A DNA stretch of 64,000 bases, taken from assembly GCA_000621985.1 (NCBI GenBank), contig JHWW01000001.1, positions 186,001 to 250,000 of the forward strand. Direction: 5' to 3'. The translations under genes were made by a program, and so were the position numbers. The notes under the pieces were generated by a model. It was given only the letters and a program-made list of their open reading frames with translations. It ran no database searches and was not told the origin of the DNA. This DNA is from Lachnospiraceae bacterium V9D3004 (GTDB lineage Bacteria; Bacillota; Clostridia; Lachnospirales; Lachnospiraceae). Each line of letters starts with the position of its first letter. Within the stretch, counting starts at the first letter, position 1. This document shows, in pieces, positions 12,395 through 33,619 of this stretch.

Positions 12395-12590
12395 GTTACT
12401 ATATCATTATATCAGATAAAAATCAACCCATAGCCCATCTGCTTCGCATCTGTCGCATCTTCGATGCTTGTGGCTATGGGGCGTGGGGAAGGTTCCTGCT
12501 TCACAGAAACCTCACACGTAACGTCATACAGATTCTTACGTGCGAGCACGACGAATCCGTATGCCATTACGTGTTTCTGTGAATAGTAAC
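12395..12590. repeat. Palindromic intergenic repeat element, copy A
   Basis: About 196 bases with 8-base perfect terminal inverted repeats, GTTACTAT at 12395-12402 and ATAGTAAC at 12583-12590. Its body is about 160 bases long and closely matches copy B at 23852-24033. It folds into two stem-loops. The first uses CCCATAGCC/GGCTATGGG with an inner GCATC-TTC-GATGC hairpin. The second uses TTCACAGAAA/TTTCTGTGAA with ACACGTAA/TTACGTGT inside. It has no protein-coding potential that I trust. A MITE-like or structured-RNA element is possible. Confidence 0.8.
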
Positions 12591-12605: not shown

Positions 12606-12634
12606 TTGATATCAATAAAAAAGTGTGCTATACT
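12606..12634 (+). promoter_or_regulatory. Promoter of the SCIFF operon
   Basis: TTGATA at 12606-12611 and TATACT at 12629-12634 with a 17-base spacer, 56 bases before the scfA ATG. Confidence 0.75.
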
Positions 12635-12690: not shown

Positions 12691-12834
12691 ATGAAGCACA
12701 TTAAAACATTGAATTCCAGAAATCTTAAAGAAAGCGTTAAGAAGGGTGGATGCGGCGAATGCCAGACATCATGTCAGTCAGCATGTAAGACCTCATGCAC
12801 AGTAGGTAACCAGACTTGTGAGAATAAGAAATAA
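12691..12834 (+). CDS. scfA: SCIFF ranthipeptide precursor (six cysteines in forty-five)
   Basis: A 47-residue precursor of a ribosomally made, post-translationally modified peptide, too short for many gene finders. Six cysteines sit at residues 21, 24, 28, 32, 36 and 43 (CGECQTSCQSACKTSC then a last Cys), preceded by a leader beginning MKHIKTLNSRNLKESVKKGG. This is the nearly invariant SCIFF pattern of Clostridia. In characterised systems the maturase links Cys sulfur to a Thr by a thioether outside the alpha carbon. AGAGAGGA is found before the ATG. The maturase gene is immediately downstream. The biological role of SCIFF peptides is not settled. Confidence 0.95.
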   Translation: MKHIKTLNSRNLKESVKKGGCGECQTSCQSACKTSCTVGNQTCENKK

Positions 12835-12847
12835 ATTAAGATTTACC

Positions 12848-12913
12848 GGGAGAGCAACGGAGGGCTGGTTTGGCAGAACCTGTTGAGAGGTATGCCGAGG
12901 GGCTCTCTTTTAG
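12848..12913 (+). other. Structured spacer between scfA and scfB (attenuator-like)
   Basis: GAGAGC at 12850-12855 pairs with GCTCTC at 12902-12907, followed by TTTTAG. Inside is a second hairpin, GGCA-ACCT (12872-12881) with AGGT-TGCC (12888-12896) and a six-base loop. An alternative inner hairpin GGTT/AACC is mutually exclusive. It could be a leaky terminator that gives more precursor than maturase transcript; this is inference. Confidence 0.55.
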
Positions 12914-12938
12914 TTGCATATAAAAAGGATAATTCAAT

Positions 12939-14318
12939 ATGATACATAGATATAAAAGTAATGGTTACAATATCGTTCTTGATGTTGTAAGCGGATGCGT
13001 TCATTCTGTTGATGATATTGCATATGAAGCGATAGGACTCTATGAACAGGATGGCAGAATTGATATAGAAAAGCTTAGAAAAGAATGTCCTTCCGTAACG
13101 GAAGAAGAAGTGGCAGAGATCACGGAAGAGATTGAAGAACTTGTTAAGAACGGTGAATTATTCACCGAGGATATATATGAACCTTATCTGAAAGATATAG
13201 GTGAGCGTAAGACTGTGGTGAAGGCACTGTGTCTTCACATTGCCCACGATTGTAATCTTGCCTGTAAATATTGTTTTGCGGGTAAAGGTGAATACAACGG
13301 CGATGCGGCTCTGATGAGCTTCGAAGTAGGAAAGAAAGCCATCGATTTTCTTGTGGCATCTTCAGGTGGCAGAAGGAATCTTGAAGTTGATTTCTTCGGT
13401 GGGGAACCGCTTATGAATTTTGATGTGGTCAAAAAGATTGTTGAATACGGAAGAAGCCTTGAAGAAAAGCATGATAAGAAGTTCAGGTTTACATTAACGA
13501 CGAACGGAATTCTTCTTAATGATGAGATAATAGAATTTGTCAATAAGGAAATGTCAAACCTTGTTCTCAGTATTGACGGCCGCAGAGAAGTCAATGACAG
13601 AATGCGTCCCACCAGAAACGGTAAGAGCAGTTATGATGTAATACTTCCGAAGTTTATTAAGGCAGCAGAGTCAAGGAATCAGACGAATTATTATGTGAGA
13701 GGAACATTTACACATTATAATACGGATTTCGTTAAGGATGTGCTTCATCTTGCGGATCTGGGATTTGAGCAGATAAGTGTGGAGCCGGTAGTATCGCCTC
13801 CGGAAGAATCGTATGCTATAACGGAAGAAGATATTCCGGCTATATGTGAAGGATATGACGAGCTTGCAAAGGAAATGCTTGCGAGGGAGGAAGAAGGAAA
13901 AGGATTTAATTTCTTCCATTATATGATAGATCTTGAAGGCGGACCTTGTGTCGCCAAGAGATTATCCGGTTGCGGTTCGGGCACTGAATACCTGGCTGTT
14001 ACACCGTGGGGGGATCTGTATCCGTGTCATCAGTTCGTCGGAAATGAAGATTTCCTGTTAGGTAATCTGGATGAAGGAATTAAAAGAACGGATATCGTGG
14101 CAGATTTTAAGTTGTGTAATGTGTATTCCAAGCCAAAATGTCGTGACTGCTTTGCAAGATTTTTCTGCAGTGGAGGGTGTGCAGCGAATGCTTATAATTT
14201 CCACGGCAGTATAAATGAGTCGTATGATATAGGATGCGAGCTTCAGAAGAAGAGGGTTGAATGTGCTCTCATGCTTGAAGTGGCAAGAGATGAACGTAAA
14301 GCATTGACTTCGATGTAA
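12939..14318 (+). CDS. scfB: SCIFF peptide maturase, radical SAM/SPASM
   Basis: A 459-residue radical S-adenosylmethionine enzyme that installs thioether links in the SCIFF peptide. An N-terminal precursor-recognition-like region (about 1-90) is followed by the radical SAM CxxxCxxC in HDCNLACKYCF and a GGEPLMNF motif. The C-terminal SPASM region binds auxiliary FeS clusters, with cysteines in LSGCGSGTEY, GDLYPCHQF, KCRDCFARFFCSGGCAANA and a late DIGCELQ. AAAGGAT precedes the ATG. It lies 104 bases after scfA and shares its promoter. Length and motifs match the CLI_3235/Tte1186-type maturases. Confidence 0.95.
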   Translation: MIHRYKSNGYNIVLDVVSGCVHSVDDIAYEAIGLYEQDGRIDIEKLRKECPSVTEEEVAEITEEIEELVKNGELFTEDIYEPYLKDIGERKTVVKALCLHIAHDCNLACKYCFAGKGEYNGDAALMSFEVGKKAIDFLVASSGGRRNLEVDFFGGEPLMNFDVVKKIVEYGRSLEEKHDKKFRFTLTTNGILLNDEIIEFVNKEMSNLVLSIDGRREVNDRMRPTRNGKSSYDVILPKFIKAAESRNQTNYYVRGTFTHYNTDFVKDVLHLADLGFEQISVEPVVSPPEESYAITEEDIPAICEGYDELAKEMLAREEEGKGFNFFHYMIDLEGGPCVAKRLSGCGSGTEYLAVTPWGDLYPCHQFVGNEDFLLGNLDEGIKRTDIVADFKLCNVYSKPKCRDCFARFFCSGGCAANAYNFHGSINESYDIGCELQKKRVECALMLEVARDERKALTSM

Positions 14319-22207: not shown

Positions 22208-22299
22208 ATCGAAGTAGTACGAATTATGAAATATAATTAATATTTTAATTGAGAGATAATTTTGGGGAGACTTTAGAGACGAAAGGAGATATTTTTTTA

Positions 22300-23781
22300 A
22301 TGAAGAAAAGGTTACACATTGGCGTTGCATTGTTTTCGTGTGTTGCTGTTATCGGAATTACAGGTAATCTGAGCGCTTCTTCACAATGTTCCGAGACAGA
22401 GATGGCAGGAATGTCGATGATGCTCGATTCCTACTATAATGCATGTGACCAGGTGGCAAGCATCGATCCGGAGAGTATCGTTCCGATTGATGATTCATAT
22501 ACAGATGATTATGAAGGTTCGATCAGTAAATATGTATTTGAACCTGTTGGTATAGAAGATGACGATGTTCAGATTGAAGCAGGTGGGGAAACTGACCCGC
22601 AGACAGGAGCGGAAGATGCGGCAGCAGCGGTTTCGGACGGAGCACTTGATGTAACCGAACCTGTTGCAACGGCAGAACCGGTATCACCGCTCGCAGATGT
22701 CGGAATATCGATCGCACATGAATATGTAAATATTCGTAAGAAACCCAATACAGACAGTAAGATCCTCGGTAAACTTTACCGCGGAAGTGCAGCTAAGATA
22801 ATTAATACAGTCGGTGACTGGGTTGAGATCAAGTCAGGAAGTGTTACCGGATATATCAAGTCAGAATATCTGGCAATAGGATTTGATGCAGAGAAGCTTG
22901 TTAACAAATACGGAACCAAGCTTGCAACTGTTAACACAACGACACTTAAGGTTCGTGAAGAACGTAATACCGATTGTACGGTATTGACACTTGTACCGGA
23001 AGATGAGACATTTGAGGTTATCAAGGAATATCCGGAATGGGTTAAGATCCTTGTTGATGACAGCACAAAAGGTTATGTATTTAAGGATTATGTTACAATA
23101 GAAGTTGAATTCACTGAAGCAATATCAATAGAAGAAGAGAAAGCGAAAGAAGAAGCTGAGAGAAGAAGAAGGGAAGCTGAAGAAGAAGCTGCAAGACAGG
23201 ATGAGGCAGAGAGACAGGCAGAGATAGCAAGACAGGAAGCAGCAAGAAGACAGTCATCAAGTTCTTCAAGCAGCAGTTCATCAAGAAGAAGCTCATCATC
23301 AAGTAGCAGCTCATCGAGCAAGAGTTCTTCAAGTAGCAGTTCATCAAGGAGGAGTTCATCGAGCAGCAGTTCTTCAAGCAAGAGTTCATCGAGCAGTTCG
23401 AGCAGCTCATCAAGTGCAAGCGGAACAGGTTCAAGTGCAGCAAGTTACGCACAGAACTTCATAGGTAATCCGTATGCATACGGTGGAACAAGTCTTACAA
23501 ACGGAACAGACTGTTCAGGTTTTGTTAAGTCTGTATATTCAAAATACGGTGTGAGCCTTCCGAGAACATCATCGGCGCAGTCAAATTCAGGTAAGAGCGT
23601 AAGCCTTGATAATCTGGAACCTGGTGACCTGGTATTCTATTCATCAGGCGGAAGCGTTAACCATGTGGCAATGTACATCGGAGACGGCAAGGTAGTTCAT
23701 GCAAGTAATAAGAGAGACGGAATCAAAGTATCCAATATGAATTACCGTACACCTTCAAAGGCAAGAAGAGTGGCCAACTAA
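22300..23781 (+). CDS. Secreted SH3-domain NlpC/P60 peptidoglycan hydrolase
   Basis: A 493-residue cell-wall enzyme. The ATG at 22300 follows AAAGGAGA; the frame is open slightly upstream. A signal peptide (about 1-28) is followed by two SH3b domains (ISIAHEYVNIRKKPNTDSK and TTTLKVREERNTDCTVL), a charged Glu/Arg helix, and a serine-rich linker of roughly 60 residues broken only by Lys and Arg. The C-terminal NlpC/P60 domain has the catalytic Cys in GTDCSGFVKSVY and His in VNHVAMYIGDG, with a later HAS. It should cleave peptide stem bonds, perhaps for cell separation. The linker DNA is low complexity. Confidence 0.93.
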   Translation: MKKRLHIGVALFSCVAVIGITGNLSASSQCSETEMAGMSMMLDSYYNACDQVASIDPESIVPIDDSYTDDYEGSISKYVFEPVGIEDDDVQIEAGGETDPQTGAEDAAAAVSDGALDVTEPVATAEPVSPLADVGISIAHEYVNIRKKPNTDSKILGKLYRGSAAKIINTVGDWVEIKSGSVTGYIKSEYLAIGFDAEKLVNKYGTKLATVNTTTLKVREERNTDCTVLTLVPEDETFEVIKEYPEWVKILVDDSTKGYVFKDYVTIEVEFTEAISIEEEKAKEEAERRRREAEEEAARQDEAERQAEIARQEAARRQSSSSSSSSSSRRSSSSSSSSSSKSSSSSSSSRRSSSSSSSSSKSSSSSSSSSSSASGTGSSAASYAQNFIGNPYAYGGTSLTNGTDCSGFVKSVYSKYGVSLPRTSSAQSNSGKSVSLDNLEPGDLVFYSSGGSVNHVAMYIGDGKVVHASNKRDGIKVSNMNYRTPSKARRVAN

Positions 23782-23806: not shown

Positions 23807-23833
23807 GGGCACAGTCGGATGACTGTGCCCTTT
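23807..23833 (+). terminator. Terminator after the NlpC/P60 gene
   Basis: GGGCACAGTC and GACTGTGCCC around a GGAT loop, followed by TTT. Confidence 0.8.
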
Positions 23834-23851
23834 ATGGGTATTCCCCTTTGT

Positions 23852-24033
23852 GGCTATTCACGGTTCCCCACGCCCCATAGCCCATCTGCTTCGCATCTGA
23901 CGCGGCTTTGCCGCTTATGGCTATGGGGCGTGGGGCGGTTCCTGCTTCACAGGATCCTTGCACGTAACGACACGCAGATTCTTACGTGCGAGCACGACGA
24001 ATCTGTATGTCGTTACGTGCCCCGTGAATAGCA
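23852..24033. repeat. Palindromic intergenic repeat element, copy B
   Basis: 182 bases with perfect 11-base terminal inverted repeats, GCTATTCACGG at 23853-23863 and CCGTGAATAGC at 24023-24033. The first stem-loop has 17-base perfect arms (23866-23882 and 23919-23935) with an inner GCGGC-TTT-GCCGC hairpin. The second is built from GCACGTAACGAC/GTCGTTACGTGC and CAGATTC/GAATCTG, with the central ACGTGCGAGCACGACGAATC identical to copy A. It fills most of the 342-base gap between the NlpC/P60 and GH43 genes. Confidence 0.85.
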
Positions 24034-24054
24034 ACCTGTTTTGCTCATAAGGCT

Positions 24055-24083
24055 TGCTTTACAAATGCTTATGTGATATTATA
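24055..24083 (+). promoter_or_regulatory. Promoter of the first GH43 gene
   Basis: TTGCTT at 24055-24060 and TATTAT at 24078-24083, 17-base spacer. CATAAG and CTTATG form an inverted repeat overlapping the -35 and spacer, a possible operator. Confidence 0.6.
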
Positions 24084-24123
24084 AATTGTATGGGTATAAA
24101 CTAAACTACAGGAGGAGATATTA

Positions 24124-26574
24124 ATGAGGAAAACAATGAAAACTATGGGAGTGCTGACATTGTCAATGGCAATGCTTCTTACTTCTGTGCCATGGAGCGC
24201 AAAGGAAGCTGATGCTGCGACTGACTATGTGTATGACGACTCGTACACTCTTGGCTGGTTTTCAAGCGATGACAGCGTTGGTGACGGCAAGAATGGTGAG
24301 ATATCCGTATATCTTAAGGGAGATTCGGTAAGGAAGACTGTCGAAGAAGCCGGAATACCGGTATATGACAAGTCCGGTGATAATCCTTTTGGTTCGGAGA
24401 TCGATCAGAAATGGGATGCGGAAAAGCTTATTCTTACAAGACCGGTACAGTATACTACAGCTGACGGTGTTGTTCACAATGTTGAGAGTATGCTGACGGG
24501 ATTTGACTTCATAGCAGATCCGACAGCTATCGATAATTCAAAGGTTGACGGTAAGTTGTACGTATACGGTACAACAGAAGGCTTCTCATACAGCGGAGGC
24601 AAGATGGCAGATAATGCTTACGATAACCATTCGCTTACGATCCTTTCATCATCCGATATGGTTAACTGGACTGATGAAGGATTCATGGATACACAGAACC
24701 TTGAAAATGATGTATCAACATGGGGCGATAAGGTTAAGTGTGCATGGGCTACCAAGGCATGGGCACCTTCGGGTCTTGCATATGACGGAGATAATGACGG
24801 ACAGGATGAATACTATCTGTTCCATACCAACTCGGGTGCAGTAGGTTATGTAATGAGTGATACTCCTACAGGTCCGTGGAGAGATCCTCTCAAGAAGACA
24901 TTATTCTCAGGCGTTTCAGGCGTAAAATGGTGTTTTGACCCTGCAGTGTTAAGAGATGATAAGGGTAATGCTTACTGCTACTTTGGTGGCGGATGCTGGA
25001 GCGACGGCAACGAAGTAAACCAGCACCCGGACGGAATCGCAAGACCTAAGACAGGTCGTGTCAGCAAGCTTAAGTTCAATGAGAACGGTGAAGCACTTGC
25101 AGACGGCAGTCCGCTTGAGATGAATACATATTATATGTTCGAAGACAGTGAGATCAATCAGTTCAACGGCAAATATTATTATTCATATTGTGCAAACTTC
25201 CATGTTCCAAGCAACAGGAATGACCTTCTTAAATCTGGAAGTATCGCATGTTATGTATCATCGGATCCTATGGATATAGCTTTTGATCCGTATCCGGACG
25301 GTGAAGACGCAGATCCTGATCTTACACCTAACTTCGGTGATGGCGTATATCATCATTATCTCGGTATGGTTCTTGACAACCCGAGTGTAATATACGGTCA
25401 GTCATATAATAACCATCATCATATGCAGGACTTCAGAGGTCATCATTATATTCTGTATCATTCAACAGAGCTTAACAACGCACTTCATCGTTCAAGCCAT
25501 CAATACAGGAATCTTCATGTCGATGAGATCAATGTTGATAAAGAGACAGATATGATCACATGTACACCTTCATACGAAGGCGCTAAGCAGATCGGTAACT
25601 ACAATCTGTATAAGAATATTAAGATCAAAGAAGACGGTTCTGAAGAGATAACCGACGACAAGACTATAAACGCTACAACAACTTCATACAGTGCCGGCGT
25701 TAAGTCATACAGATCCGATGCTATGGTAGACGCTGTATATAACGAAGATTCTAAGTGCGGTGGTTCACCGATGGTACTTGATGCTATCGATACCGGTGAC
25801 TGGACCAAGCTTCAGGGCGTTGACTTCGGTAAGGGTATCAAAAAGTTCGAGGCTGTTGTTGCTTCAACTACAACAGAAGGTGCTATCGAGCTCTTCAAGG
25901 ATGATCCTACCAAAGCTTCCAACATGATCGGTAAGATTCAGATCAAGGATACAGGCGATATCGAAAGTTATGATACGATCTCAACCACAGAGATAGATCA
26001 TAATGTAACGGGAGTACATGATCTGTATTTCGTATTCAGAGGTTCTGATTACAGAGTTGCTTCATGGAAGTTTGAAGAGAGTCCTGTTGCACCTGCAACA
26101 GCTACTCCTGAGCCGACAGCAGTTGTTACCGCAACTTTGGCTCCCGCTGCAACACAGGCTCCTGTAGCACCAGCTTCTCCATCACCTGTACAGGCAGCTC
26201 CTGAAAAAACTGCAGTTGACACAACTAAGACATATACTGTTGGTAAAAATAAATATAAGATCACAGATGCAGATGCAAAGACTGTTGATTATGCCGGTCC
26301 GGCAAAGAAGAATGTCAAGAGCGTGGTGATTCCGGGTTCGGTTAAGATTGGCGGAGTATCCTATAAGGTTACCGGAATCGCAGCAAAGGCTTTCAAGGGA
26401 TGCAAGAAGGTTACGACCATAACCGTTAAGGCTACCGGACTTAAGAAAGTCGGAGCAAAAGCATTTGCGGGAATTGCGGCAAAAGCCAAGATCAAAGTTC
26501 CAAAGGGCAAGCTAAAGGATTATAAGAAGCTGTTCAAGGGCAAAGGTCAGGGCAAGAAAGTTAAGATCAAATAA
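24124..26574 (+). CDS. Secreted GH43 enzyme with CBM6-like and leucine-rich modules
   Basis: An 816-residue extracellular enzyme, probably an arabinofuranosidase or xylosidase acting on arabinoxylan; the exact linkage is not clear. Signal peptide about 1-32. The five-bladed propeller has the GH43 triad Asp132 (IADPTAID), Asp272 (CFDPAVLRDD) and Glu340 (FEDSEINQFNGKYYY). A CBM6-like sandwich (about 515-645, SYSAGVKSYRSD to LYFVFRG) follows, then an Ala/Pro/Thr linker (about 655-700) and a basic BspA-type leucine-rich C-terminus ending KGQGKKVKIK. AGGAGG precedes the ATG. It is paralogous to the next gene, with closely similar catalytic and CBM domains but a different tail. Confidence 0.9.
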   Translation: MRKTMKTMGVLTLSMAMLLTSVPWSAKEADAATDYVYDDSYTLGWFSSDDSVGDGKNGEISVYLKGDSVRKTVEEAGIPVYDKSGDNPFGSEIDQKWDAEKLILTRPVQYTTADGVVHNVESMLTGFDFIADPTAIDNSKVDGKLYVYGTTEGFSYSGGKMADNAYDNHSLTILSSSDMVNWTDEGFMDTQNLENDVSTWGDKVKCAWATKAWAPSGLAYDGDNDGQDEYYLFHTNSGAVGYVMSDTPTGPWRDPLKKTLFSGVSGVKWCFDPAVLRDDKGNAYCYFGGGCWSDGNEVNQHPDGIARPKTGRVSKLKFNENGEALADGSPLEMNTYYMFEDSEINQFNGKYYYSYCANFHVPSNRNDLLKSGSIACYVSSDPMDIAFDPYPDGEDADPDLTPNFGDGVYHHYLGMVLDNPSVIYGQSYNNHHHMQDFRGHHYILYHSTELNNALHRSSHQYRNLHVDEINVDKETDMITCTPSYEGAKQIGNYNLYKNIKIKEDGSEEITDDKTINATTTSYSAGVKSYRSDAMVDAVYNEDSKCGGSPMVLDAIDTGDWTKLQGVDFGKGIKKFEAVVASTTTEGAIELFKDDPTKASNMIGKIQIKDTGDIESYDTISTTEIDHNVTGVHDLYFVFRGSDYRVASWKFEESPVAPATATPEPTAVVTATLAPAATQAPVAPASPSPVQAAPEKTAVDTTKTYTVGKNKYKITDADAKTVDYAGPAKKNVKSVVIPGSVKIGGVSYKVTGIAAKAFKGCKKVTTITVKATGLKKVGAKAFAGIAAKAKIKVPKGKLKDYKKLFKGKGQGKKVKIK

Positions 26575-33503: not shown

Positions 33504-33517
33504 CTGTAAGTGTCATA

Positions 33518-33612
33518 ATATGGCTTCCTACGACGGCATTATCCGTATCAGGTATGCGGGTCGAAGCAGATTAGCTCCCTCTCAGCCGGTTCCCCCGGCT
33601 CCCCGGATCATA
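33518..33612 (-). promoter_or_regulatory. TPP riboswitch (THI element)
   Basis: On the reverse strand the conserved core is present in order: CCGGGGAGCC, GGCTGAGAGG, CGACCCGCATACCTGAT, GGATAATGCCGTCGTAGGA. This is the thiamine pyrophosphate aptamer, with CTGAGA and ACCTGAT as the key motifs. It lies in the leader of thiS-thiG-thiH-thiE-thiC and should switch the operon off when TPP is abundant. Confidence 0.97.
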
Positions 33613-33619
33613 TGTTCAA

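Follow-up and report, generated by a model that had tools for sequence, protein, structure and literature searches.

Two related elements, A and B, in the 64,000-nucleotide stretch of the Lachnospiraceae bacterium V9D3004 genome analysed here (the window) are probably old copies of a non-autonomous transposon (MITE), with ISBst12-type ends and a Clostridiales-1-like RNA core. That they belong to a mobile element family is almost certain. The original prediction had offered a MITE-like element or a structured RNA as alternatives; both appear to apply at once, the MITE part being indicated by multiple copies, terminal inverted repeats (TIRs), 8-bp duplications and a matching transposase family, and the RNA part by covariation, a strand-specific tolerance of G-U pairs and a relation to the Rfam family RF01699 (Clostridiales-1 RNA).

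Judged from its sequence, element B is best described as an IS66/ISBst12-type MITE with a Clostridiales-1-like RNA core. Its parts and immediate surroundings are as follows:

23850-24035 (186 bp), element B in its covariance-model boundaries; predicted RNA on the minus strand, 5′ end at 24035
23850-23863, plus strand, left TIR, GTGGCTATTCACGG (family consensus GTTACTATTCACRG); forms the 3′ end of the predicted RNA closing stem
23853-23863 and 24022-24032, perfect TIR core, GCTATTCACGG and CCGTGAATAGC
23866-23935, minus strand, branched hairpin with a 17-bp perfect outer stem, two inner hairpins with GCGAAGC-type loops; covarying pairs in helices 7-9
23866-23882 and 23919-23935, the 17-bp perfect arms of the branched hairpin
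23937-23957, minus strand, middle hairpin, GGTTCCTGCTTCACAGGATCC (helix 5), almost unvarying across a 21-copy alignment
23960-24020, minus strand, long hairpin, whose stem letters vary among copies while complementarity is kept
23960-23981 and 23999-24020, arms of the long hairpin (second stem), 22 nt, 91%
23979-24001, minus strand, conserved tip of the long hairpin, TTCTTACGTGCGAGCACGACGAA; RNA strand UUCGUCGUGCUCGCACGUAAGAA
24022-24035, plus strand, right TIR, CCGTGAATAGCAAC; forms the 5′ end of the predicted RNA closing stem
23807-23830, plus strand, outside the element, 10-bp hairpin without mismatches that presumably terminates the NlpC/P60-SH3 gene at 22249-23781
24058-24087, plus strand, outside the element, weak promoter match (9/12) upstream of the GH43/CBM6 gene at 24124-26574

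The extent predicted earlier, 23852-24033 (182 bases), was nearly right, the covariance model placing the boundaries one to two bases further out. The perfect 11-base terminal inverted repeats, the 17-base perfect hairpin and the second long stem were all recovered, the 11-bp perfect core lying within a 14-bp imperfect TIR. Open reading frames within B reach at most 70 amino acids and pass through the palindromes, in agreement with the earlier view that no plausible protein is encoded. The folding energy of B is -113 kcal/mol for the plus and -119 kcal/mol for the minus strand (z ~ -13, with 0 of 200 shuffled sequences equally low). The covariance model R1 scores B at 205 bits, a value that is high by construction, B being part of the model. 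The proposed setting between a gene end and a promoter also holds for B, which is flanked by the gene-end hairpin and the promoter match listed above, and A lies upstream of a promoter (see below); a terminator scan gave the hairpin at 23807-23830 no score as a terminator. Both genes flanking B run on the strand opposite to the RNA, and thus no obvious promoter would drive the RNA of this copy.

The second copy and its surroundings comprise:

12403-12590, minus strand, element A, oriented like B, with an eroded left TIR and an intact right TIR, CTGTGAATAGTAAC
12533-12555, minus strand, conserved tip of element A (G000:C1:198533-198555)
12606-12634, plus strand, outside the element, good extended -10 promoter serving the gene at 12692, which encodes a six-cysteine peptide; the promoter is conserved in relatives that lack the element

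A and B are the window's only two copies, 11 kb apart and 85% identical over 162 bp; the related block predicted at 12395-12590 is therefore present, with its start moved to 12403. Element A sits directly upstream of the promoter at 12606-12634. In all eight same-genus genomes in which scfA was found, the region upstream of this gene contained the promoter and lacked the element; the flanking genes differed, so that none of these regions is a clean empty site. The stretch 12692-14318 itself carries the six-cysteine peptide (SCIFF/scfA-like) gene, followed by that of its radical SAM maturase.

Searching the host genome by blastn, we obtained 41 alignments, five of which were palindrome self-matches, leaving ~36 distinct places with identities from 100% to ~70%, many half copies included. 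The TIR GTTACTATTCACRG occurs there, with at most one mismatch, at more than 50 sites, as against three for a reversed control pattern. Blastn in nine genomes of the same genus found no copy. The tip motif, again with at most one mismatch, was present in 10 of the 397 Lachnospiraceae genomes searched (controls gave 0 matches), and in a larger genome collection at more than 111 loci, nearly all in Lachnospiraceae, plus Pseudalkalibacillus caeni (Bacillaceae). Across genera the tip is kept together with its internal loop, and the surrounding stems are not. Neither the tip nor the element was matched in viral contigs or in phage and plasmid records. Rather than two copies without homologues, the family thus counts ~36 host places, with relatives in many Lachnospiraceae genera and one Bacillaceae genome. 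P. caeni holds at least four elements (L163, L167, L212, L217) with the same tip hairpin, TTTGCTCYCCC-type outer stems and another hairpin order.

We grouped these loci by their ends: class I has ends GTTACTATTCACRG (host, genome G273 and others), class II has ends GTAACTATTCAGAAC, and class III has ends of another kind and a TATAAT-like site upstream; copies recognised by the Rfam RF01699 model were called canonical. Among the 51 class I and II copies with both ends, 27 were flanked by an 8-bp repeat matching at seven or more of its eight positions, 17 of them exactly, whereas 20,000 shuffled pairings gave a mean of 0.73 and a maximum of 6. No exact repeat longer than 8 bp was seen among the class I and II copies tested for duplications. 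The target-site duplications that had been proposed as a check are therefore found in the family and kept by neither A nor B, at which no flanking 8-bp duplication was seen; these two are probably older insertions. The family is short, carries TIRs and no transposase gene, and occurs in dispersed copies with a target-site duplication, as MITEs do. A separate 79-bp MITE with ISBst12-type ends (L107, 1501-1579; G273:C16:4878-4956) has no hairpins and an exact duplication, TTTCGCTA, so the ends alone seem enough for movement. This short type may be extremely abundant in G273, which has 316 TIR sites. In the host genome, an unrelated long palindrome (GTGTGGGGGTATGGTGTGGG...; L037, ~1345-1500) lies just before a TIR-like CTGTGAATAGTAAC and perhaps represents another MITE type.

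The element ends are very probably of the ISBst12 type, a group of IS66. Transposons of this group share these ends (GTAACTATTCAG) and likewise leave 8-bp duplications; we found exact 8-bp repeats around ISBst12-type IS66 elements with GTAACTATTCAG-like ends in Geobacillus (GTAACTATTCAGCCC and AACTCGTC), Anoxybacillus (CTAACGAC) and Chlorohelix (AATTATTT). One member, ISDge4, has been captured in the act of transposition; its ends are GTAACTGCTCAGCA, and it has an 8-bp repeat (PMC12898284). Its likeness to the present elements, shared by a pHTA426 element annotated as ISGka4, lies in the terminal GTAACTRTTCAG and the 8-bp duplication; unlike the window elements, which encode nothing, the group encodes a transposase, and class I ends read GTTACTATTCACRG, the TTCAC form occurring only in L369. 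(The NCBI label ISGka4 on the pHTA426 element clashes with an ISLre2 element called ISGka4 in PMC8024623.) Within Lachnospiraceae, ISBst12-type members have ends GTAACTATTCAG, GTAACTATTCAC or GTATCTGTTCAG; six transposase genes or fragments and a host remnant adjoin GTAACTATTCAG, GTAACTATTCAC or close variants, and one right end, GGGTGGTTCTGAATAGTTAC, approximates the class II MITE end GGGGTTCTGAATAGTTAC.

The host remnant, a 91-aa piece of IS66 through which alone the ISBst12 subgroup was recognised, has ISBst12-like elements as its closest plasmid relatives, and its end GTAACTGTTCAG begins immediately past its stop codon. This end differs from the class I end GTTACTATTCACAG, and the exact class I partner is missing: neither the host nor the 25-copy genome yielded a complete transposon bounded by class I ends on both sides, and no convincing TIR pair surrounded a gene of 0.6-4 kb. 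From the shared ends, we propose that an ISBst12-type transposase acting in trans would move the element, leaving 8-bp duplications. Two other candidates were set aside. Ordinary IS66 (Pfam PF03050) at first looked absent in carriers, and its ends are mostly GTAAGCG; an ISLre2/UPF0236 transposase was absent in five of six carriers and had no matching ends in the sixth.

The interior, for its part, is likely under RNA-level constraint. When 11 host copies were fitted to the copy-B structure, 93.4% of cells could pair and 32 of 73 pairs showed double changes, with 13 of the 21 pairs of helix 3, the outer stem of the long hairpin, among the doubly changed. None of 500 shuffles reached any of five measures, and slid structures were 30-43% paired; deriving the structure from one aligned sequence (B) favours the percentage paired and does not explain the double changes. 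In a model-fitted alignment of 66 matches, G-U outnumbered A-C mismatches by 142:42 across the three internal hairpins and by 54:8 within the tip hairpin by itself, and the TIR gave 23:18. An alignment-free count that treated both mismatches alike gave 164:71 for a set of 121 tip hairpins and 36:5 for those of the host, the significance of this count being inflated by the relatedness of the copies, which makes mismatches non-independent. A role in DNA alone predicts equal numbers, and the asymmetry thus points to an RNA from the window's minus strand, although part of the G-U excess could reflect strand-biased mutation. The predicted folded RNA from the minus strand would be closed by a stem that the TIRs form and would carry three hairpins: a long one tipped with a conserved GCUYGC, a middle one and a branched one. 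Rfam matches of the hairpins to microRNAs and HBV epsilon were taken as chance.

Several comparisons make it highly likely that the element core is homologous to Clostridiales-1 RNA, described as a probable RNA that is not cis-regulatory, found in Clostridiales and the human gut, with no function given (Weinberg et al. 2010, PMC2864571). The RF01699 model, at its threshold of 48 bits, gave no hit on A or B, which we therefore regard as relatives, not members. Over its whole length, the RF01699 model gives 57.1 bits to L222, a locus with the exact tip, and a class I sister element, L104, with a TIR nearly as in host copies, reaches 39.1 bits (E 2.4e-7) at full length. Conversely, R1, built from host class I copies only, recovers the host RF01699 copies L313 and L315 at full length and on the same strand (E ~6e-8), and it also matches class II elements, with scores reaching 90 bits. 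The host has four RF01699 copies above threshold. The earlier statement that the element is not covered by common categories is thus right only in part: a related family exists in Rfam, and the elements fall below its threshold. Both types share a closing stem, a long GCUUGC-tipped hairpin and further branched hairpins on the same strand, and both are multi-copy in the same bacterial family; the window elements differ in an additional middle hairpin, other ends and a sub-threshold score. Read by eye, class II and canonical RNAs have in common a pairing of AUGAGCA with UGCGAAU, including tandem G-A mismatches, which is absent from host class I copies.

The RF01699 copies themselves look mobile, on good if not final sequence evidence; we found no report of this in the literature searched. 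Their right TIR (GACCTTTTGACCCCAACATCA) falls outside the Rfam model. An exact 5-bp repeat flanks nine of the 17 canonical copies whose right end could be recognised (shuffled mean 1.1, maximum 7 in 20,000); the sample is small, comes almost entirely from two genomes and has AT-rich flanks. The canonical mobile form would thus be TGAT...ATCA with ~5-bp duplications, as opposed to GTTACTATTCACRG and 8 bp in the family of the window elements and, if this evidence is right, the same RNA core rides two unrelated end types. It is possible, if speculative, that the core (tip UUCGUCRUGCUYGCAYGUAAGAA) is the cargo of at least two unrelated end systems, spread across Lachnospiraceae and into a Bacillaceae genome by the RNA's own usefulness to element or host through a dedicated tip-binding partner. 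The left flanks of canonical copies (L278-L306, L317) are often TATAAT-like and part of the 5-bp repeats, suggesting insertion beside -10 boxes or a TA-rich target preference. Class III loci (L158, L160, L165, L181, L182, L220, L226, L234 and others, in Coprococcus, Hungatella, C. symbiosum etc.) are preceded, on the RNA strand, by a conserved TGGTATAATGTNCACG-like site, and some form local tandem copies (L235).

Other explanations for A and B fare less well. Their spacing of 11 kb and shared orientation would suit the ordinary duplication of an intergenic block to a nearby place, which is practically excluded by the ~36 places genome-wide, by the homologues in many genera and by B's nearest relative, which lies on another contig at 89% identity against only 85% for A. 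It is improbable, though more worthy of attention, that the ends alone matter and that the hairpins are a by-product of palindrome copying or repair (template switching) with no RNA role. The hairpin-less 79-bp element fits this idea, as it shares the ends and is flanked by an exact 8-bp repeat, and quasi-palindrome correction can create compensatory changes. Such an origin, however, predicts equal G-U and A-C counts, contrary to the ratios in the internal hairpins and in the host's own tip hairpins, and it does not lead one to expect a tip and internal loop conserved across genera beside adjoining stems that are not. Less probable still is that the hairpins work as DNA, in cruciform or single-stranded form, which a single-strand nuclease, REP-type or other, would recognise as in REP/RAYT: both strands do fold strongly, and the tip sequence is conserved with its mismatch and bulge, but the 8-bp duplications and DDE-type ends speak against it, and the strand asymmetry of mismatches favours RNA.

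As to what the RNA of this ISBst12-type MITE might do, we tentatively consider an effect in cis on the mRNAs of adjacent genes most likely. The RNA would then work as a stable, structured part of a neighbour's mRNA, the two being transcribed together, with a conserved factor or nuclease recognising the tip. Of 35 copies with a co-directional 5′ neighbour, 19 have the RNA 5′ end within 20 nt of its stop codon, as against 4 of 17 in the mirror case at the 3′ end, a pattern that depends on simple ORF calling; overall, copies show a weak bias in how they are oriented to the genes beside them. The stop-codon placement lends weak support to this role and would suit an element transcribed as the structured 3′ part of an mRNA, as with ERIC and NEMIS. 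In one orientation ERIC influences mRNA stability, and NEMIS RNA is a proposed RNase III substrate (review PMC2229807). ERIC/IRU and Correia/NEMIS resemble the present elements in being shorter than 200 bp, non-coding and TIR-bearing, with highly base-paired transcripts (predicted, for the present elements); they differ in their unrelated sequence and their enterobacterial or neisserial hosts, whereas the present core, with its strongly conserved tip, occurs in many Lachnospiraceae genera and one Bacillaceae genome. Literature searches on the TIR strings, MITEs or REP elements in these bacteria returned nothing relevant. A stand-alone, trans-acting small RNA gene, with its own promoter in each copy and spread by transposition, would be a rival as to role, not mobility, and is rather unlikely. 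RF01699 was catalogued as likely non-cis (PMC2864571), the conserved TATAAT-like site ~25-30 nt upstream of class III, on the RNA strand, fits a free-standing RNA, and a TATAAT-like sequence often precedes canonical copies. Host class I copies, however, have no common promoter at the RNA 5′ side, and the TATAAT before canonical copies may reflect target-site preference, being part of the 5-bp repeats.

Since 2010, Clostridiales-1 has stood as an orphan RNA family, and transposon ends would explain the high, patchy copy number of both this family and the present relative; the element type in the window suggests a route by which a related RNA can spread between genomes. The analysis documents a MITE family with putative ISBst12 ends in gut and rumen bacteria and makes a concrete candidate for the mobilising enzyme of the window's class testable. 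It also recasts the role of the RNA as testable questions: whether it is transcribed with its neighbours, how it affects their mRNAs and what binds the tip. Elsewhere in the window, the minus strand at 33508-33615 carries a TPP riboswitch (Rfam RF00059, 63.6 bits).
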